Shown here in pieces: positions 1-7,762 of a stretch of 64,000 bases of DNA. The DNA comes from Litorilituus sediminis (GTDB taxonomy: Bacteria > Pseudomonadota > Gammaproteobacteria > Enterobacterales > Alteromonadaceae). The notes beneath the pieces are model-generated. The model saw nothing but the letters and a program-made list of their open reading frames with translations, did not search any database and was not told the origin of the DNA. Positions within the stretch are counted from its first letter, which is position 1, and the number at the start of each line of letters is the position of its first letter. The DNA lies in contig NZ_CP034759.1 of assembly GCF_004295665.1 (NCBI RefSeq), positions 682,001-746,000 of the forward strand, read 5' to 3'. Both the position numbers and the translations under genes were made by a program.

Positions 1-3000
1 TAGTAGGGATAACTTCCTCAGCAAACTTTTGAAGCTTTACCTCTAATAAATCATCTGTTTGAATAAACTTATCTAGCTCATGTAATACTTGGCTCTCGTG
101 CTCGACAACGTTTTCAATTTCTTCTACTTCAGATTCTATCTCAGCATGTTCAGGTACTTCAGTTTTTAGCTGATGTAATGCTTCAATAATTGGCTTTAAT
201 TGAGCTTGTGGATTTTTGAACCAATCGGTTGACCATATTCGTTTAATATTCCAGCCTAAGCCTTCTAGTACCGATTGACGTAACCTGTCCCTGTCACGTG
301 CGGATTTAGCAGAATGGTATGTTGCTCCATCACATTCCACGCCCATTAAGTAGCGACCTGGCTGACCAGGGTCTTGCACTGCTAGGTCAATAAAGTAACC
401 GGCAACCCCAACTTGTGGCACACAAGTAAAGCCCTCAAGCTTTAATGCATTCATCACGGCTATTTCAAAATCACTATCTGGCTGTTTTCCAGTATGTTTT
501 TGCTGTTGAAGCTTGCCAGTTTGAGCAAAGCTTAAAAAGCTTTTAAGGGCTTGTACACCTGGGCTTGATGTTTCAGATGCGACAATATGGCCTTCTGTCA
601 TTGAGCTAAATACATGCATGCGTTTTTTAGAACGAGTGAATAATACATTTAATCGTCTGCCACCTGCGGCTGAATTAATTGGGCCAAAACGCTGCGGCAT
701 TTGAGCCGCCCCTGCTTCTTGTGGACCGTAGGTGCATGAAATGTAGATAACGTCTCTTTCATCACCTTGTACATTTTCAAGGTTTTTAAGGAATAATGCT
801 TCATCTGTATTCGCATTATCCGCCAATGCATCTCTAAATTGAGGGTCATCTTTAGATAGCTCTTCCACACAGCGCTCTATTTGCTCTCGCTGTTTTGAAC
901 TCATTGCAACCACACCTAACGATTCATGTGGTCGATGTAATAAATGGTTTCTCACGGCTTCGGCAATAACTTTAGCTTCTTCAATATTATGCTGATTTAC
1001 AAAGCGACCACTTTTTACGTGGGTAAATTTAATACCAAATTCATCACTTTTACTTGATGGTGATGGGAATACCACTAAGTTACTGTCGTAAAATTCCTGG
1101 TTGGAAAAGGCAATTAAACTTTCGTGACGCGAGCGATAATGCCAACGTAACCGACGAGCATTGAACATAGGGAAAGAGACATCGAGGATGCTTTCTGATT
1201 GCTCTATCGCTGTGGTATCTTCATCATCGTTATCAACGGCTTTATCAAAAAAGCTCGTTGGTGGTAACTGCTTTGGATCGCCAACAACAACTAATTGTTT
1301 ACCCCGAGCAATAGTACCTAAAGCATCTTGTGGTTTAATTTGTGATGCTTCATCCATAACGACTAAATCAAATTCTAGTTGTCCTGGTGCTAGGTATTGA
1401 GCTACAGAGTGCGGCCCCATCATGAAGCAAGGTTTTAAAGCCACTAAAGATTTACTGGCTCGTCTAACTAGTTGCCTTATCGGTGCATGACGAGTTTTTT
1501 TGTTCACTTCATTGTTGATAAGACCCATTTCAGTGTAAGAAGATACCTTACCGCTTGAAACACCAGAAAGAGTATTATTAAAGCCTTGTGCAACCTGATA
1601 GGCAATTTTCTGCTGTTGAAGCGTTTTAAGCTTATTGTCGTATTCTCTAAATTGCTTACGAATAGCATTTTGGTCGGCTCCTGAAAAATAAGCTAACTCT
1701 TGGTTCTCATTTATTATTTCTCTGGCCAGAATGTCAAATACTGAGTAAACATAGATTTGTTCAATATTTTCTAAATCTAAAGCACCGGTTTCGGTATAAC
1801 GTAATAAATTCTCTAATCCTTTGTCTGACAATGACGATCTGATTCGAATAAAGTCTACCCAAGTGCTCAGCCAACGAGGCTGGCTAATCGCTTTATGATT
1901 ACGTTCTTGCAATAACTTGAAATTACTATTCGTCCCTTTAAACCATGCGCTCTCATCTAATTCAACTCTATCGGTGAACTCCTGTAATGTCTTTTGATAA
2001 CCATTAAACGCATCTGAAATCTTTTTCAAATTAGATGTAATTGTAGATAACGCTTCACTGCTAACATTATTTAACAGATATTCTCGTAAAGGCTCAGACT
2101 CAAGCACGTTAATGGCCTTACTTAGCTCTAGCGTAGATTCAATTTTTATTAGCTGCGAACTAGAGTCATTTCTTGTTGAAAGATGTGTATGCTCATCAAA
2201 TAGTTCTCTAGAAATATCATTTTTATGTAGTTCACCCTCAGCCCGAAATAAAGTTAAAACTTGCTCAATAGAGCTAGCTAACTGATTTAAGGTAAAGTCT
2301 TTGTTAGACAGTGATTGTATGGTTTTAATGTCACCTTCTAGTTCATCAACAAACGAAGAAATGCCTATGTCTGCTGATAAGTTTGTATTTTTATCAGTAA
2401 ACAGCTGATGCGAGAAAACACGCTCAAGTTGAGGGAATAATTGCGAGAACTGTTCAAATTCTGCAAGTGATTTAGTTGCTGCTAAATGCTTTAAGCCTTT
2501 ATATAAATCACCTTCAATAGAAAATAATGAATTAGCAAAAGAAACTCTTTTACCAAACCCAACCCCATAAGAAGCTCGAACATCTTTATACCAAGACCTC
2601 AAGCTTATTAGTTCTGCTATTGGTGTATCAATTCCTTTGAACTCATGTTGCAGTAAAGTTTGATATGCTGGCTCTTTATTTAATTCATCTATCATCTCTC
2701 GATATGAAGTTAAGCTGGCAATTAGTGGTGCTAATTTTTTAACTTTAGGTTTCAGACCTTTAGCATACATAAGCAGTTTAGACTTAGCAGCTCGCCACTC
2801 ACTGCTAAACCAACAAAAAAATCCTGCATTTTTTAATATGCTATCAATCTCTTTTAGTTCATTTACTGAAGGTAAATTTTCTAGGTTAAAGTGTTGCTCT
2901 AAACTCTGGTGTAGAGGTTTAATTTTTGGAAGAAGTTCTTCTAAATTAGCTAAGTGTTGATCTAAAAGCTCATTATCAAATAATTCGTGTCTTCTGGATA

Positions 3001-5446
3001 TAAGCGTTACATCTAGGGCATTTATATGTTCAAAGAACTGTTTGCACTCTATAAAGCCATTATATGATGGTGATAATAACTCAGTTAAACTACTTTCTTG
3101 CTCCGTTAATATTCGCAAATCATCAGACAGAGACAAACTTATATCTCTTAATGTTTTTAGTAACTGTAACTGTTGAAAAATATTAGTTAGCGTTAGCTCT
3201 ACACTCTTACACTGTTCTCGTAGATTATTATTAGATTTTGTAAAACGCTCGAAGGTTTCTTCTTCATTTAGAATGACAGGCTCGAATAACTCTTCCATCT
3301 CCCCTAAAAGTTTAGATGTCGCTTTATAATCATTTATATATTCAGTTAACTCATTCTCTTTCTGAGAACTCATTAAGCTTAAAGTTTGAAGATGTTCCGT
3401 GCCTTTTAATTTAGGTATCTTATCGCTGTCAGATAATACTTGTTTTAATGAGCTAATATCACTAACAACATCACTTCGAAGTTGCTCATTAAATGGTGTA
3501 ACTGCTCCTTCTACAGCCGCAATAGCGTTATCCCAAGCGGTCAATAGCTTGCATATTTCATCACAATCAAATAATTGGATAGACTTGTTGTAGACACCAA
3601 ACCATGGATGTTCAGCTAACTCTGCGTCAGAACCATACTGTTTTTTTACTTCTTCAAAAACATCAGCGTATTTTTTTAGCTCATCCGTAGTTCTTCTTGA
3701 AGATATTTCATCAAAGCTTTGGCCATTGATATGATCAGGTTTAATATCTTCTATTGATATATTTGTATATTCTTCACGATACCGTGTTGCTGTAGAAAAG
3801 ATTTGATGAATTGTTCTCCCGGTGTTTTTCCATGTGCTGTTGATCAAATTAGCATAACGAGTTAATGCTTCTTTTTTCTCTTCATACATTTGGATATCAA
3901 TATCAATTGATGACGGGTAACGATAATCATCTTGGTTGTTTATTCGCTTGGCTATATTTTCATATACTTGTTTTTTCTGTGTTTTATGGCTGTGTAATTC
4001 TAGACAAAAATCACCTAAACCAGCTCTAGATAGTCTAGATTTTACAACTTGAAGTGCAGCCATTTTCTCAGCTACAAATAGTACTTTTTTACCTTGTGCA
4101 ATTGCCGCTGCTATTAAGTTTGTTATCGTTTGAGATTTGCCAGAGCCTGGAGGACCCTCTATAACTAAATCTTTACCTTGAATAGCATCAACCAAAGCAC
4201 TGTGTTGTGAGCTGTCTGCATCATCAATTAACGGGTACTGGTTATGCACTTCATCTAGCTTATCTATTAAATACTCTTCACCGAAACTTGTATTACTTCC
4301 GTTGCCTTCATCGACTCCTTGTTTAGCAAAAAACTTTTGAAGAATTGAATGGTTTTGAATGTTACTCGCACCTTGTGGCCAACGTGAAGGGTCTAAATCT
4401 AAGTACATGAGTAACTTGCCAAAATCGAACATTGACAGTGTAGAAAAACGCTTAACTTTCCACTCAGGCTTATGTCGCGAGAATTGCTTTTCTACTTTTT
4501 CTAAATAGGCTTCAGGTAAGATATCTTCACTTAGCTCGGGTAAATCGAGATGAAAATCATGTTTAAGCTTTTCTCTAAGTGAAAGGTTTGAAATTATATC
4601 TTCGCCAGTATACTCAATGGTATACGTATATGTACCAAGCTCTTTATTTAATGCTGCTCTATCGATTTTTACGGGTATCAAATAAAGAGGCGCTTGCCGT
4701 GTAACGCTTGAGTTTTCATCTTCAAACCATTCAAGAAAACCAAATGCTAAATACAAAATATTTGCACCTGTTTCTTCAATAGCTGTATTTGCTTTCGTTC
4801 GAATATTACGTAACTGTGCTTCTAACTCTCTCGGATATAGCAAAGATTGAATGTTTGTATCATTGTGTTTGGAGTCTTTTGACTTAGTGCTTAATGGCAG
4901 CTCATAGCTAGTATTAAACCCTTTAACTTTTGCCCATTCTTTTGCACTAGGATCTGCTTTTATTTTTACTTCTTGGCCATTATCGTCTATGACGATATAT
5001 CCTTGTCCAATTAACTCATCTCTTAATGGTTCATCAATTGGTATAAAAGTAAATTTATGTGACTCTAAAATATTTTCAGCAAGCTGATCCGGCATTTCAT
5101 CAATTACACGAATAAAGCCTGATCTACCATGTTTGAAGTTTAACAGTCTGTTTCTGCCTGTTAGATCTAATAAGCGATTTCGAATTGACTGCAAAGAATC
5201 AAATGCAAAGTTCTCATTTAACTGAGTATTAATAGAATTATCCATATCTTGAGGTACTCCCTTTTTCTTTATTTCAGTTAAACACCACGAGTAATCTTCA
5301 TTTTGCTTTACCTTGTCGAACAGTACCGAGTACAAGGTGTGATTGATTGATTTTTTGTCTACATCAAGTTTCTTAGCAAGATCTTTAGCTTTCTGATTTG
5401 GTGTTGCCTTAAGTTCACATAAAATTAGATCAGATAACTCGCTCAT
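1..5446 (-). CDS. DUF4011 / SF1 helicase with C-terminal Vsr/DUF559-like nuclease, 3' end beyond window
   Basis: The frame is open without a stop from the ATG at 5446 to the left edge (at least 1815 codons), so the C-terminus is missing. Residues 1-60 look like a small winged helix. About 88-108 carries the DUF4011 signature (LLDLTGRNRLLNF). Walker A GPPGSGKS is near residue 430. About 930 mostly helical, charged residues follow before Walker B (VVMDEAS, near 1365), GDPKQLPP (near 1388), HYRSRHE and QGDERDVIYIS (near 1565), which are UvrD/Upf1-type superfamily-1 motifs. A PD-(D/E)XK nuclease follows, with FIDLAV and VECDGATYH near 1685-1710. This layout matches DUF4011-helicase-Vsr anti-phage proteins (called Hhe, as I recall). 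A DUF3320 domain would be expected past the edge. It is the second gene of an operon with the WYL regulator, 7 bp downstream. Defence function is inferred from family and context. Confidence 0.93.
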   Translation of the reverse strand, partial: MSELSDLILCELKATPNQKAKDLAKKLDVDKKSINHTLYSVLFDKVKQNEDYSWCLTEIKKKGVPQDMDNSINTQLNENFAFDSLQSIRNRLLDLTGRNRLLNFKHGRSGFIRVIDEMPDQLAENILESHKFTFIPIDEPLRDELIGQGYIVIDDNGQEVKIKADPSAKEWAKVKGFNTSYELPLSTKSKDSKHNDTNIQSLLYPRELEAQLRNIRTKANTAIEETGANILYLAFGFLEWFEDENSSVTRQAPLYLIPVKIDRAALNKELGTYTYTIEYTGEDIISNLSLREKLKHDFHLDLPELSEDILPEAYLEKVEKQFSRHKPEWKVKRFSTLSMFDFGKLLMYLDLDPSRWPQGASNIQNHSILQKFFAKQGVDEGNGSNTSFGEEYLIDKLDEVHNQYPLIDDADSSQHSALVDAIQGKDLVIEGPPGSGKSQTITNLIAAAIAQGKKVLFVAEKMAALQVVKSRLSRAGLGDFCLELHSHKTQKKQVYENIAKRINNQDDYRYPSSIDIDIQMYEEKKEALTRYANLINSTWKNTGRTIHQIFSTATRYREEYTNISIEDIKPDHINGQSFDEISSRRTTDELKKYADVFEEVKKQYGSDAELAEHPWFGVYNKSIQLFDCDEICKLLTAWDNAIAAVEGAVTPFNEQLRSDVVSDISSLKQVLSDSDKIPKLKGTEHLQTLSLMSSQKENELTEYINDYKATSKLLGEMEELFEPVILNEEETFERFTKSNNNLREQCKSVELTLTNIFQQLQLLKTLRDISLSLSDDLRILTEQESSLTELLSPSYNGFIECKQFFEHINALDVTLISRRHELFDNELLDQHLANLEELLPKIKPLHQSLEQHFNLENLPSVNELKEIDSILKNAGFFCWFSSEWRAAKSKLLMYAKGLKPKVKKLAPLIASLTSYREMIDELNKEPAYQTLLQHEFKGIDTPIAELISLRSWYKDVRASYGVGFGKRVSFANSLFSIEGDLYKGLKHLAATKSLAEFEQFSQLFPQLERVFSHQLFTDKNTNLSADIGISSFVDELEGDIKTIQSLSNKDFTLNQLASSIEQVLTLFRAEGELHKNDISRELFDEHTHLSTRNDSSSQLIKIESTLELSKAINVLESEPLREYLLNNVSSEALSTITSNLKKISDAFNGYQKTLQEFTDRVELDESAWFKGTNSNFKLLQERNHKAISQPRWLSTWVDFIRIRSSLSDKGLENLLRYTETGALDLENIEQIYVYSVFDILAREIINENQELAYFSGADQNAIRKQFREYDNKLKTLQQQKIAYQVAQGFNNTLSGVSSGKVSSYTEMGLINNEVNKKTRHAPIRQLVRRASKSLVALKPCFMMGPHSVAQYLAPGQLEFDLVVMDEASQIKPQDALGTIARGKQLVVVGDPKQLPPTSFFDKAVDNDDEDTTAIEQSESILDVSFPMFNARRLRWHYRSRHESLIAFSNQEFYDSNLVVFPSPSSKSDEFGIKFTHVKSGRFVNQHNIEEAKVIAEAVRNHLLHRPHESLGVVAMSSKQREQIERCVEELSKDDPQFRDALADNANTDEALFLKNLENVQGDERDVIYISCTYGPQEAGAAQMPQRFGPINSAAGGRRLNVLFTRSKKRMHVFSSMTEGHIVASETSSPGVQALKSFLSFAQTGKLQQQKHTGKQPDSDFEIAVMNALKLEGFTCVPQVGVAGYFIDLAVQDPGQPGRYLMGVECDGATYHSAKSARDRDRLRQSVLEGLGWNIKRIWSTDWFKNPQAQLKPIIEALHQLKTEVPEHAEIESEVEEIENVVEHESQVLHELDKFIQTDDLLEVKLQKFAEEVIPT

Positions 5447-5453
5447 TAAAAAC

Positions 5454-6323
5454 CTACTTCATTTCATAGCCTGGTGCGATAGCTAAGTTTTCAGCACCGT
5501 ATAAGGTTTGTGTATTGCGTAAAAACAGTTGATATTCAGGTCCAGAAAGCGTTCCGCTTTCAGAGCAATCCACGTTCCAGCGCCTTAACAAGTAGCCTGC
5601 CATGGCGGCTCTTACATTAACCTCTAGCACACCGCTTTCCATGCCAAAATCGAGCTTTATTGCCGTAGGGTGCTCAACATTCTTTGGATGTGGAATAATC
5701 TGCAATGGCACTATACGCATCCATTGATGATCTTCTAACTTATCCTCTTCAGGCTTTGGTGTCTGTGCCAGAATTGTAACTTTGGTAATGCGGGTTAAAA
5801 CAAAATCTCGGAATGATTTTGATTTGCGATCATAGGCTCTTAGATGCCATCGTAGGCCGTTATCAACTATAGAATGAGGCACTAGCTCCCTTGAACCTGA
5901 GCCACTAGTCAAAGACGTATAAATAACGCTAATAGGCTTTTGATTAATAATCGCTTGAGATAACTTAGCAATAATATCAATTTCTGGCACATTTAGAGGG
6001 CTTGGAGTTTCTATGGGGAATGATGTTTCACCAATTGCATCAAAACCATCACTGATATTGTTTGCTAATTTGATAAGTGTACGGCGAGCATCGTGCTTAA
6101 ATACAGGCTTGAACTTAGTCGTAATAAAGTATTTTTTCTCTACATTATCATAAGCCATATTATTAGGGGCTTGCTCTTTGTAGAACTTCAAATCACGAGT
6201 AGCAGCCGCCAAACCTAACTCAAAATGGCTAACTATTTCACTACGAGTAACCATACCTGTGAAGTACAGTTTAAAGTCGATATAAGCTAAGCGCTGCCTC
6301 TGTGCAAAACTAAAGTCGGTCAT
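5454..6323 (-). CDS. WYL-domain transcriptional repressor, BrxR/CapW type
   Basis: 289 residues, the usual length of BrxR/CapW regulators. The N-terminal winged helix (1-80) carries the typical pattern QRLAYIDFKLYFTG, then AAATRDLKFYKE and NNMAYD. A WYL domain follows (about 115-195; here the motif residues appear as GLRWHLRAYD), then a C-terminal dimerisation-type domain with YLLRRWNV. Members of this family repress BREX, CBASS and other phage-defence operons and are thought to release DNA on sensing a nucleic-acid or nucleotide signal. The gene lies just upstream of the helicase-nuclease with 7 bp between them, so it is most likely co-transcribed and autoregulatory. A palindrome at 6351-6368 in the divergent promoter is a candidate operator. 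The ligand is unknown. Confidence 0.88.
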   Translation of the reverse strand: MTDFSFAQRQRLAYIDFKLYFTGMVTRSEIVSHFELGLAAATRDLKFYKEQAPNNMAYDNVEKKYFITTKFKPVFKHDARRTLIKLANNISDGFDAIGETSFPIETPSPLNVPEIDIIAKLSQAIINQKPISVIYTSLTSGSGSRELVPHSIVDNGLRWHLRAYDRKSKSFRDFVLTRITKVTILAQTPKPEEDKLEDHQWMRIVPLQIIPHPKNVEHPTAIKLDFGMESGVLEVNVRAAMAGYLLRRWNVDCSESGTLSGPEYQLFLRNTQTLYGAENLAIAPGYEMK

Positions 6324-6341
6324 TCAAGAACCCTGATTCTA

Positions 6342-6371
6342 TTGACATTTCTATTTAAGCGGAAATAGTAT
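6342..6371 (+). promoter_or_regulatory. Candidate promoter with overlapping palindromic operator
   Basis: TTGACA at 6342-6347 is followed 18 bp later by TAGTAT (6366-6371), a plausible sigma-70 promoter for the plus-strand gene at 6452. An inverted repeat CTATTT-N6-AAATAG occupies 6351-6368, exactly between the two elements. On the minus strand a weaker TTGATG/CATACT pair toward the WYL gene places the same repeat at its start region. A repressor bound here could shut both directions. This is a sequence-based inference. Confidence 0.4.
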
Positions 6372-6451
6372 GTATCATTATGAGTTAGACATCAAATGGA
6401 TTTTGTGCTTTATTGTTGATTAAGATCATCATTACCTAAAAGCATCTAACA

Positions 6452-6706
6452 ATGCCTAAATCAAACACTGAAATTCACCTCGATAATCAGAGCCATTTAC
6501 CTGAACTAGAGCAGTTAAAATCTGAATACGTTGATATTTACAATGAGCTAATGGCTCAGTTCAGGTTTGATGAGAAAACTTGTCAGGAGTGGCTAATAAC
6601 ACCTAAACGCCCATTGCAAGGTAAGTCTCCTTTTGAACAGTTAATAATTAATGCTGATGAAGTGATGGGATTACTGGTTCGTATGAAGACAGGAGATTTT
6701 TCGTGA
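6452..6706 (+). CDS. Short MbcA/ParS-like (DUF2384) protein
   Basis: 84 residues. The C-terminal half (about 45-84) matches the MbcA/ParS/Xre toxin-binding domain: WLITPKRPLQGKSPFEQL, then ADEVMGLL and a GDFS ending. Family antitoxins usually carry an N-terminal Xre-type helix-turn-helix and pair with a RES-domain toxin. Here the N-terminus is only about 40 residues with no clear DNA-binding domain, and no RES toxin follows. Its last codons overlap the GTG of a 53-residue ORF, so the two are translationally coupled. It is divergent from the WYL gene and shares its promoter region. It could be an orphan antitoxin, a degraded toxin-antitoxin locus, or an accessory part of the neighbouring system. 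Confidence 0.7.
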   Translation: MPKSNTEIHLDNQSHLPELEQLKSEYVDIYNELMAQFRFDEKTCQEWLITPKRPLQGKSPFEQLIINADEVMGLLVRMKTGDFS

Positions 6707-6864
6707 AGCCAGCACCTAAGTCAATTTCGAGCAAAAAAGAGTTTGTAAATTCATTTAAAACTGGTCAGTTAGAAAATCCAGGCGTGGACATACACGAATC
6801 TCGTAAGCGTACTGAGAAGAAGTTGAAGCAAATAAAAGCAACTATAGATAAAAGCCAGACTTAA
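6703..6864 (+). CDS. Small basic protein, 53 residues, coupled to the MbcA-like gene
   Basis: Starts with GTG at 6703, overlapping the stop of the upstream gene by four bases (GTGA), and ends with TAA at 6862-6864. The upstream AGGAG at 6691-6695 is a good ribosome binding site for this GTG. The protein is lysine-rich and hydrophilic, with a predicted helix rich in K, R and E at its C-terminus (ESRKRTEKKLKQIKATI). I recognise no family, and it is far too short to be a RES toxin. The tight coupling supports a real gene whose product may act with the MbcA-like protein. Confidence 0.6.
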   Translation: MKPAPKSISSKKEFVNSFKTGQLENPGVDIHESRKRTEKKLKQIKATIDKSQT

Positions 6865-6870
6865 GGATAT

Positions 6871-6926
6871 GTCCATTTTTATGATAAATATTTTGATGAA
6901 ATCATCACAAAAATGGGCAGTTTTTC
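6871..6926 (+). terminator. Rho-independent terminator of the MbcA-like operon
   Basis: GTCCATTTTTATGAT at 6871-6885 pairs with ATCATCACAAAAATGGGC ending at 6918, forming a long imperfect stem, followed by TTTTTC. It begins 6 bp after the 53-residue ORF. Confidence 0.6.
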
Positions 6927-7050
6927 TAAAATTTATGATAAATTTTTAGATTAGATAAAAGTACATACAAATTTTAACTTAACCTACTGTTAAAGATAGT
7001 TTTTTATAGTAAAAATCATATTTTTAGTCATGAACTATTTCCAAGGATAG

Positions 7051-7203
7051 ATGCTTATGGGTAAAGAATATGACGGCATTCACCGCTTAAGCTTTTTAAT
7101 TGGTCTAGATGGCAACATTAGCCATGTTTTTAACAAGTTTAAAACTAAAAACCACCATGAAGTGGTATTAGAAGTTTTAGCTGAATTAGAACAGTCTGCT
7201 TAA
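7051..7203 (+). pseudogene. bcp: 3' fragment of bcp (thiol peroxidase)
   Basis: Fifty codons remain (ATG at 7051 or 7057, TAA at 7201-7203). The text MGKEYDGIHRLSFLIG followed by VFNKFKTKNHHEVVLE is the C-terminus of bacterioferritin comigratory protein / Bcp peroxiredoxin, close to E. coli Bcp. The catalytic N-terminal two thirds, including the peroxidatic cysteine, are absent, and an in-frame TAG lies just upstream. In E. coli bcp lies in the same neighbourhood as perM-bepA-yfgD-hda, which are found in order further right, so this is the native 3' end left behind when foreign DNA entered. The product cannot be an active peroxidase. An intact copy may lie beyond the left edge. Confidence 0.82.
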
Positions 7204-7250
7204 TAGCAAAACTAATGCCCCCTAAATCAGGGTCTCTCATTTAAAAATAT

Positions 7251-7280
7251 AAAATGCGGTAATTTATACCGCATTTTTTA
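7251..7280. terminator. Bidirectional terminator between bcp remnant and mgsA
   Basis: AAAATGCGGTA and TACCGCATTTTTT flank a short AT loop, with an A-rich left side and a T-run on the right. It serves convergent genes on both strands and is probably the original bcp terminator. Confidence 0.8.
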
Positions 7281-7294
7281 TGCATAGAGTTACG

Positions 7295-7762
7295 CTAATT
7301 TGTCGTTCTATTAGCGATATAGTTTTGATAATCAGGTACCTCTATAACACTTTCCTCTTTCAAGCTACTTGAAGCAATCAAAAAATTCGCACTGGCTTGA
7401 TTCGTTGCAACAGGAATATTCCAAACTGCCGCCAACCTAAGTAATGCCTTGACATCAGGGTCATGAGGTACGGCATCAAGCGGATCCCAAAAGAAAATTA
7501 GTACATCTATTTTACCCTCGGCAATCATAGCACCAAGCTGTTGATCACCTCCCATAGGGCCAGAAAGTAAGCAGGTTATGGGCAATTCAATTTGCTTTTG
7601 TAGTAATGTTCCCGTTGTACCTGTGGCGTACAGTTGATGACATTTAAGCTCAGCTGATACTTGCTTAGCCCAATTGATTAAATCTGCTTTCTTATTATCA
7701 TGAGCAACTAATGCCATACGTTTACACTTAGGTAAAGTTCGAGTTGTCACACCAATAGCCAT
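7295..7762 (-). CDS. mgsA: Methylglyoxal synthase
   Basis: 155 residues (E. coli MgsA has 152). Cytosolic; converts dihydroxyacetone phosphate to methylglyoxal and phosphate, a bypass that relieves sugar-phosphate build-up. Visible motifs are HDNKK (21-25), TGTTG (47-51, phosphate binding), GPMGGDQQ with the catalytic aspartate at 73, and H100/D103 in PHDPD, matching the family active site. It is transcribed alone, with a lipoprotein gene 28 bp upstream on the same strand, and ends against a bidirectional terminator. Confidence 0.96.

Follow-up and report, generated by a model that had tools for sequence, protein, structure and literature searches.

A predicted BrxR-headed type I restriction-modification operon with four further defence modules on an acquired island of Litorilituus sediminis

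Genes at the locus

The genome of Litorilituus sediminis (NCBI RefSeq GCF_004295665.1, contig NZ_CP034759.1) is a single contig of 4,275,717 bp, and the stretch analysed here, called the window, comprises its bases 682001-746000 (64,000 nucleotides). At the left end of the window lie two minus-strand genes, brxR, coding for a predicted WYL-domain repressor of the BrxR/CapW type, and hhe, coding for a helicase-nuclease with a DUF4011 domain that runs out of the window. Seen in the whole genome, the two head a run of eleven genes, a BrxR-headed type I restriction-modification (RM) operon with four further modules: Hhe, DRT type 4, Mokosh and the McrBC-like candidate PDC-M26. The original prediction had described a defence operon of WYL regulator and helicase; it had caught the head of the operon, but only two of the eleven genes, with the type I RM genes, Drt4, Mokosh and PDC-M26 lying behind. 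It is worth bearing in mind that a window edge can disguise a multi-system operon as a two-gene one. The features of the run are as follows (G numbers denote genomes, G000 being this one, C numbers contigs and L numbers loci).

G000:C1:662211-688323, minus strand: run of eleven genes, 26,113 bp, all eleven frames open
Window 5454..6323, minus strand: brxR, predicted BrxR/CapW-type WYL transcriptional repressor of 289 amino acids (aa), first gene of the operon (Pfam, phmmer)
Window 1..5446, minus strand: 5' part of hhe (open reading frame, ORF, 2-5446, 1815 aa, open to the left window edge; NF042953, PADLOC)
G000:C1:681801-687446, minus strand: complete hhe, 1881 aa, reaching 200 bp beyond the left window edge
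Window 4565..5176, minus strand: DUF4011 domain of Hhe, residues 91-294 (Pfam PF13195, 2.6e-39)
Window 4133..4156, minus strand: Walker A motif GPPGSGKS of the superfamily 1 (SF1) helicase, residues 431-438, inside the AAA_11 match
Window 176..469, minus strand: MTES_1575 restriction-endonuclease-like domain of Hhe with VECDG, residues 1660-1757 (Pfam PF18741, 2.4e-37)
L004:17441-17797 = G000:C1:681441-681797, minus strand: orf118, a 118-aa ORFan of acidic appearance lying between hhe and hsdM (ORF listing)

On the minus strand the order is brxR - hhe - orf118 - hsdM - hsdS - drt4 - mkoA - mkoB - hsdR - PDC-M26A - PDC-M26B, and the ten gaps in this order measure 7, 3, 25, -11, -10, 40, 5, 15, -1 and 3 bp, with three overlapping gene pairs. 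Since every junction lies between -11 and 40 bp, there is little room for intergenic promoters, and the eleven genes probably form one operon with one transcript. Beyond BrxR and Hhe, the products are orf118 (118 aa), HsdM (523), HsdS (449), Drt4 (551), MkoA (1648), MkoB (464), HsdR (1099), PDC-M26A (757) and PDC-M26B (889).

Hhe is reportedly a DUF4011 domain-containing anti-phage protein. Against the NCBIfam equivalog NF042953 (cut-off 2000 bits), the truncated protein of the window scores 2531 bits over profile positions 1-1737 of 1797, and the complete protein 2617 bits over 1-1797, which is a full-length architecture; the PADLOC Hhe model gives the window protein 1767 bits. Its SF1 helicase is split in Pfam into AAA_11 (residues 411-600) and AAA_12. 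When the window protein is aligned with five others that are 43-65% identical to it, seven of the eight Walker A positions and four of the five positions of VECDG (residues 1703-1707; E1704, C1705, D1706 and G1707) are invariant. ORFs, Pfam domains and motifs thus confirm what had been predicted at the head of the run, a WYL regulator 7 bp upstream of a DUF4011 SF1 helicase of at least 1815 codons with a VECDG nuclease, and the proposed defence class of the helicase can now be named as Hhe by the curated equivalog and PADLOC. The prediction had been staked on the protein having DUF4011 and nuclease matches and on its homologues not being confined to non-defence contexts without WYL genes, and neither expectation failed. 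Less fortunate was DUF3320, foreseen for the gene's 3' end after leftward extension, which was not found in the complete 1881-aa protein (Pfam, E up to 0.1). Membership of the truncated protein in the ProA family (NF058533) was considered and rejected (1159.6 vs a cut-off of 1500).

The type I RM genes code for HsdM, an HsdS with two target domains (Methylase_S in two stretches) and an HsdR with nuclease and SWI2/SNF2 motor. HsdM matches N6_Mtase (1e-110), HsdM_N and the PADLOC model MTase_I (624.7 bits), and HsdR carries HSDR_N, SWI2_SNF2 and the T1RH C-terminal domain, with 444.8 bits against TIGR00348 (cut-off 284.55). Drt4 exceeds the NF041749 cut-off of 450 with 710.8 bits, matches RVT_1 and has YIDD in its translation. 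The two Mokosh components stand adjacent and full length, MkoA with 1874 bits to PDLC03921 (profile 1-1603 of 1607, protein residues 1-1642) and MkoB with 342.7 bits to PDLC03923 (profile 3-446 of 454), both in PADLOC. Likewise adjacent and full length are both components of PDC-M26, a PADLOC candidate system that is McrBC-like as a candidate only: M26A scores 894.5 bits (profile 10-724 of 724) and M26B 336 and 619 bits on two pieces (profile 4-280 and 284-855 of 857). For orf118 there was no family match, no homologue in plasmids and none confirmed in viral contigs, and 195 other genomes of the family yielded no convincing homologue, only one weak match (30%, E 0.004) inside a 904-aa frame. 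MADS membership was also tried and rejected: HsdM, HsdS and MkoA match mad2, mad5 and mad6 only weakly, with equivalog scores far under the NCBIfam cut-offs (47.7 vs 720, 25.9 vs 400 and 108.5 vs 460).

The regulator and its predicted operator

Pfam recognises in the 289-aa regulator a WYL domain only (1.2e-12). In a phmmer search of PDB its best match is BrxR of pEFER (7qfz, 8.1e-85, residues 3-287), followed by CapW (9c5g, 7tb5, 7tb6) and then BrxR 7t8k, and the likeness to solved members extends over the whole winged helix-turn-helix, WYL and C-terminal length, which makes it a member of the BrxR/CapW family, as had been proposed. A passage of PMC9122601 names S143, S145, S146, K173, H174 and R184 as pocket residues of BrxR-Efer; the equivalents here are S137, T139, S140, K167, S168 and R178, four of the six being identical. 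CapW and BrxR proteins are said, in a passage of PMC13373217, to repress until single-stranded DNA (ssDNA) binds.

Window 6368..6390, minus strand: predicted BrxR operator GTCTAACTCATAATGATACATAC, 45-67 bp upstream of the BrxR start codon (likeness to the family motif)
Window 6342..6371, plus strand: sigma-70-like hexamers TTGACA-16-AATAGT or -18-TAGTAT, divergent from BrxR and abutting the predicted operator (consensus scan only, weak)

The operator is predicted from a core, ATCAAAATGAT, that recurs upstream of BrxR-type genes. Across 45 upstream regions (that of the window, 41 from loci of an order-wide sample, one of them the second copy of this genome, and three from named records), the top 9-mer, TCAAAATGA, tied with the overlapping CAAAATGAT, occurs in 16, vs a maximum of 4-6 in ten shuffled sets, a count inflated by close relatives among the genomes; the longer core was picked after viewing the same sequences. 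In the 1.8 kb of pEFER that were compared, the region at the coordinates that PMC9122601 gives for R-BOX1 reads AACCTACTGAAAAACAGTAGGTT, and its layout resembles that of the operator predicted in the window. A strong palindromic operator recognisable in the window alone was rejected, for about 70% of 30 shuffles contain an inverted repeat as good as the best one there, or better. The plus-strand hexamers are weak because the interval 5300-7300 holds eight promoter-like sites vs 7.3 expected by shuffling.

The genome holds a second BrxR gene, 59-60% identical to the first, that heads hsdM, hsdS and hsdR, then a weak HEC-05 match and two more genes. This second operon (L005:8642-19454, minus strand), with its type I RM genes, weakly HEC-05-like protein and proteins of 220 and 457 aa, has a similar operator motif, and cross-regulation between the two BrxR operons is possible. 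A 15-base pattern drawn from the two promoters has three matches genome-wide, namely both promoters and one inside a 250-aa ORF, vs none for a reversed control; a BrxR regulon beyond the two promoters was rejected on account of the position of this third match, other variants of the motif not having been searched. The genome also has a weak third WYL match (32%, E 4.5e-5), to a 256-aa protein whose neighbours do not look like defence genes.

The type I scaffold and its cargo

Comparison with relatives reveals a mosaic whose breakpoints fall at gene borders. One of them is the locus of Pseudoalteromonas sp. MSK9-3 (L196), which at the DNA level is like the operon in hhe (85-89%), hsdM (84%) and hsdR (79%), while the alignment skips brxR, orf118, drt4, mkoAB, M26 and most of hsdS, apart from one 332-base patch (75%). 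Its hhe-hsdM junction measures 103 bp and lacks orf118, and PDC-S62 occupies its slot between hsdS and hsdR. Other loci share other parts: mkoA, mkoB and hsdR align in a single block of 9.8 kb at 69.5% in G125 (L145), the mkoAB block alone aligns at 78% in L142 and L143, hsdM, drt4 and hsdR are in common with G214 (L139), and in L138 M26A and M26B, at 46% and 32% protein identity, form a full-length pair apart from the other modules.

The slot between hsdS and hsdR is used repeatedly. A close HsdR (E<=1e-150) was found in 17 of 295 genomes of the order, a sampling within one order that is uncorrected for phylogeny; ten of the 17 operons hold at least one ORF of 70 aa or more between hsdS and hsdR (G000, G214, G076, G125, G075, G184, G023, G187, G118 and G227), and seven hold none (G160, G052, G079, G182, G199, G166 and G163). 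In eight of the ten filled slots at least one cargo protein has a PADLOC match: Drt4 in G214, MkoB of Mokosh in G125, Drt4 with MkoAB in G000, PDC-S62 in G076, G187 and G118, PDC-M16/M72A in G023 and PDC-S23 in G227. The scanned slot proteins of G184 and G075 matched nothing.

It was also observed that four separate type I operons (L238, L242, L244 and L196) have PDC-S62 in their hsdS-hsdR slot, in two of which it is a SWIM zinc finger or DUF6880-like protein; this suggests that PDC-S62 is a specialised partner of type I RM.

BrxR and Hhe in other genomes

Of the 295 genomes, 51 hold BrxR-type genes (E<=1e-60). Besides the two of this genome, 62 places were listed, of which 40, nearly all of them the best-scoring, were fetched; with the second copy of this genome, 41 genes were examined. 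Nine are directly followed by hsdM (L005, L106, L107, L108, L110, L111, L113, L114 and L128) and one by an hsdM fragment (L109). Two of these type I operons carry additional systems: SIR2-HerA stands behind hsdR in L106, and PDC-S11 and GmrSD-like matches lie between the hsd genes of L107. L108 and L110, and L128, compared by gene size only, agree in the sizes and order of their genes. Elsewhere BrxR heads a run with a BrxC match a few genes downstream (L095, L103), genes matching HmaA (L104, L124), C3a139 (L091, L115) or PDC-S63 (L092), a DrmD-like gene (L090), or, with Mokosh farther along the run, an MmeI-like enzyme (L089).

L089 (G160:C1:644000-663999), with BrxR, an MmeI-like type IIL RM gene, three unassigned genes and MkoA-MkoB, is a second BrxR-Mokosh operon of different build. 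In L116, L118, L119, L120 and L121, all of one genus, BrxR-like genes (46-47% identical) are followed by only two small co-directional ORFs; the chromosomal context is apparently conserved, and the role of these genes is possibly one outside defence.

The linkage of Hhe to BrxR is uncommon. The order sample contains seven Hhe genes over the cut-off, and a listed BrxR neighbour only at that of the window. A wider set of DUF4011-helicase loci comprised 80 of 546 confirmed matches of the Hhe profile, at least four of which (L168, L175, L177 and L184) are the same places as loci of the order sample; type I genes were sought there with the Hsd proteins of this genome alone as queries. Among the matches listed, BrxR lies directly upstream of the helicase in at least four of the 80 (L156, L180, L209 and L217), with a type I subunit also present in L209 and L217 and none detected in the run of L156 and L180, and a type I subunit shares a co-directional run with the Hhe-like gene in at least ten. 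These counts are lower bounds because 32 of the 80 runs reach a contig edge; L177, moreover, where 244 bp separate the followers of hhe from the hsdM run, escaped the co-directional test. The Hhe-like protein is under 50% identical in 67 of the 80 among the matches listed, so that many of these may lie outside Hhe proper. The neighbours preceding six further DUF4011-helicase genes, examined as candidate WYL regulators, matched Mrr, a Spondin_N domain, an epimerase, a transposase and EF-Ts, and one had no family match. The Mrr-type restriction gene (L147:12590-13507, minus strand, in G247) immediately precedes an interrupted Hhe copy, which type I genes follow, another mixed defence run. Pairs of an Hhe-like gene and a WYL gene, which the original prediction had suggested looking for, thus exist, but as an uncommon arrangement, and the idea of a WYL-regulated version of the Hhe class as a conserved lineage trait is not upheld, with one of seven genes in the order, at least four of 80 listed loci and none of the four most similar.

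The island and its boundaries

The locus is an acquired defence island. The genes that we take, from their sequences, to be gcvR and perM stand 1.1-1.5 kb apart in five genomes of the same genus vs about 33.7 kb here; the two further genomes of the genus (of seven) gave no gcvR match at E<=1e-30. The labels bcp (peroxiredoxin) and IS3 used below are likewise our assumption from the sequences, and an AhpC-TSA match was computed with Pfam for both bcp copies.

Window 7055..7205, plus strand: 3' remnant of the native bcp, right island boundary (DNA alignments)
Window 6452..6706, plus strand: 84-aa ORF divergent from BrxR, a probable fragment resembling Xre/ParS-type antitoxins in their C-terminal domain (PF09722 and NF049845, under the cut-offs)

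The native bcp is interrupted by the island: the 5' part, which matches AhpC-TSA, stops at about L008:14613 beside the presumed IS3-type element, and the 3' remnant aligns at 67-81% DNA identity from 7055-7057 with four of the five genomes, relative to which a stretch of 42-49 bp is absent where the two parts would meet. The fifth genome (L257) aligns with another bcp copy, carried by the island. This second, complete bcp lies at L008:16609-17073. The gene remnant that had been suspected at an island boundary is thus supported, and the Xre/ParS-like ORF beside it remains under the curated cut-offs (PF09722 19.3 vs 24.5 bits, NF049845 24.3 vs 90). No integrase was noticed among the listed ORFs of the island, although no search aimed at integrases was made.

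In the interval L008:14324-17073 the complete bcp stands next to the IS3-type element, as if the cost of the insertion had been compensated. Also beside the element, a 161-aa protein without a Pfam match (L008:16036-16521, plus strand) is possibly a mobile-element accessory gene.

Interpretation and alternatives

Overall, we put at roughly 70% the probability that the core of this acquired island is one eleven-gene, BrxR-repressed operon of five stacked defence modules on a type I RM scaffold. The reading builds on gene content, gene order, intact frames, spacing, mosaic breakpoints and the empty site in relatives, all of them observed. Judged from sequence, the predicted repressor appears to control all five anti-phage modules; a single transcript, repression, an ssDNA trigger and anti-phage activity of this copy would be expected. 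The BrxR/CapW-type repressor would bind the BrxR-box-like operator in its own promoter and keep the operon low, until ssDNA or a similar nucleic-acid signal, arising as phage DNA is replicated or cut, binds the WYL pocket and frees the repressor. Release would then raise, from one promoter, the methylation-guided nuclease HsdMSR, the helicase-nuclease Hhe, the antiviral reverse transcriptase Drt4, the kinase-helicase pair Mokosh and M26, the McrBC-like candidate against modified DNA. The type I operon would have served as the scaffold, which the modules may have entered at its borders, upstream of hsdM, between hsdS and hsdR and downstream of hsdR.

Several observations weigh against this reading. 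At the level of the regulator, one of the pocket changes is conservative (S to T) and one is different (H to S); the operator copy GTCTAACTCATAATGATACATAC differs from the core at two positions, and 25% of 40 shuffles reach the same level, so that it is not significant alone; and a consensus scan found no minus-strand promoter-like site directly upstream of brxR. In the order sample, 13 of the 41 BrxR-type genes have no co-directional follower, and the presence of BrxR alone is therefore no proof of defence-operon control. None of the four loci with an Hhe at least 80% identical among the matches listed (L149, L150, L153 and L196) has BrxR, and type I genes adjoin hhe in L153 and L196, with none detected in the available DNA of L149 and L150. 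Within the operon, HsdM falls under the TIGR00497 cut-off (198.1 vs 242.75), and orf118 is unexplained. Finally, the single transcript is predicted from short spacing, and the promoter-like sites inside L004, fewer than in shuffles (40 vs 57.2), and the terminator-like sites there, at chance level (15 vs 13.0), neither support nor exclude internal signals.

The most serious competitor, to which we would give perhaps one chance in five, is passive accretion, whereby the modules came to lie side by side in the island, on the same strand by chance or through selection for compact spacing, with promoters of their own, and BrxR regulates only itself and Hhe. The exchange of modules at gene borders among relatives would suit it, as would the absence of BrxR from L196, a close hhe-hsdM-hsdR relative that manages without, the occurrence of MkoAB (L142, L143) and of the M26 pair (L138) apart from the other modules, and the promoter-like sites inside the operon, though these are not above chance. 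It accords poorly with junctions of -11 to 40 bp and three overlapping pairs, and with the recurrence of BrxR-headed type I operons with extra systems (L106 and L107, and by gene sizes L108, L110 and L128).

Somewhat less probable, indeed doubtful, is a functional coupling in which Hhe, and perhaps Mokosh, would use HsdMS methylation to discriminate self from non-self within one integrated restriction machine. Hhe is indeed linked to hsd genes in several positions, before hsdM (L196, L200, L205, L208), between hsdS and hsdR (L179) and after hsdR (L153, L219). On the other side, 70 of the 80 listed DUF4011-helicase loci gave no type I match within the run, a figure that understates linkage because of the 32 runs that meet a contig edge and the use of this genome's Hsd queries only; 240 of the 291 plasmid records with a match, counted as records only, are from Klebsiella; and MkoAB occurs without detected type I genes in L140-L144.

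That brxR and hhe form a two-gene system, the type I RM and other genes being no more than neighbours, is improbable, as orf118 and hsdM trail hhe at 3 and 25 bp and a type I subunit is co-operonic in at least ten of the 80 loci, including L196 (the closest relative among the matches listed), L209 and L217, even if BrxR directly precedes a DUF4011 helicase in L156, L180, L209 and L217 and the runs at L156 and L180 gave no type I match.

Beyond this genome, one could speculate, quite tentatively, that BrxR-headed type I operons are a general cargo platform, in which the repressor and the borders at hsdM, between hsdS and hsdR and behind hsdR would be standard docking points where unrelated systems are exchanged, one ssDNA-sensing switch would fire all of them, and the nucleolytic attack of the first enzymes would feed the inducing signal back. 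The stacked operon bears on how bacteria coordinate many defence systems, and relatives with the same scaffold and different cargo make coordinated induction, synergy and the cargo-slot idea testable by gene deletion.

Comparison with known systems

In listings of open-licence papers no description of this gene combination was found, which does not prove that none exists. The published cases consulted have a repressor before two or three systems, vs five modules behind one predicted repressor here. One is the RptR-RMS-DarTG2-M48 island of enteropathogenic E. coli (PMC12255303), which likewise has a repressor as its first ORF and a second system between hsdS and hsdR of a type I RM operon, and for which repression of the island's promoter by RptR was shown. 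RptR is a small 9-kDa repressor and not a WYL protein, and that island has one embedded system and seven ORFs, vs four additional modules and eleven genes here. TgvAB of V. cholerae VPI-2, likewise a set of defence genes embedded in a type I RM operon, protects on its own, but that operon has five genes and one embedded system, and the word WYL is absent from its main text (PMC11411939). The BREX/BrxU island of pEFER shares the regulator family, its position ahead of the defence genes and a similar operator box, whereas its cargo is BREX with a type IV enzyme, the passage on it mentioning no Hhe, Drt4, Mokosh or PDC-M26 (PMC9122601); in the same source 34 of 210 BrxR-associated systems are type I restriction, and islands with three systems are reported.

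Among systems defined by protein families, Hhe (NF042953) is over its cut-off and full length here, and in the loci examined it usually comes without an adjacent BrxR. MADS combines type I-like methylation subunits and a kinase, as this operon does, but the operon's matches to it are far under the cut-offs. BrxR beside defence genes, systems embedded in type I operons and each of the modules are thus of kinds already published. The operon is a larger case of an arrangement known from simpler examples, and it is of interest for its large stack, its clean mosaic and a predicted common induction that can be put to the test.

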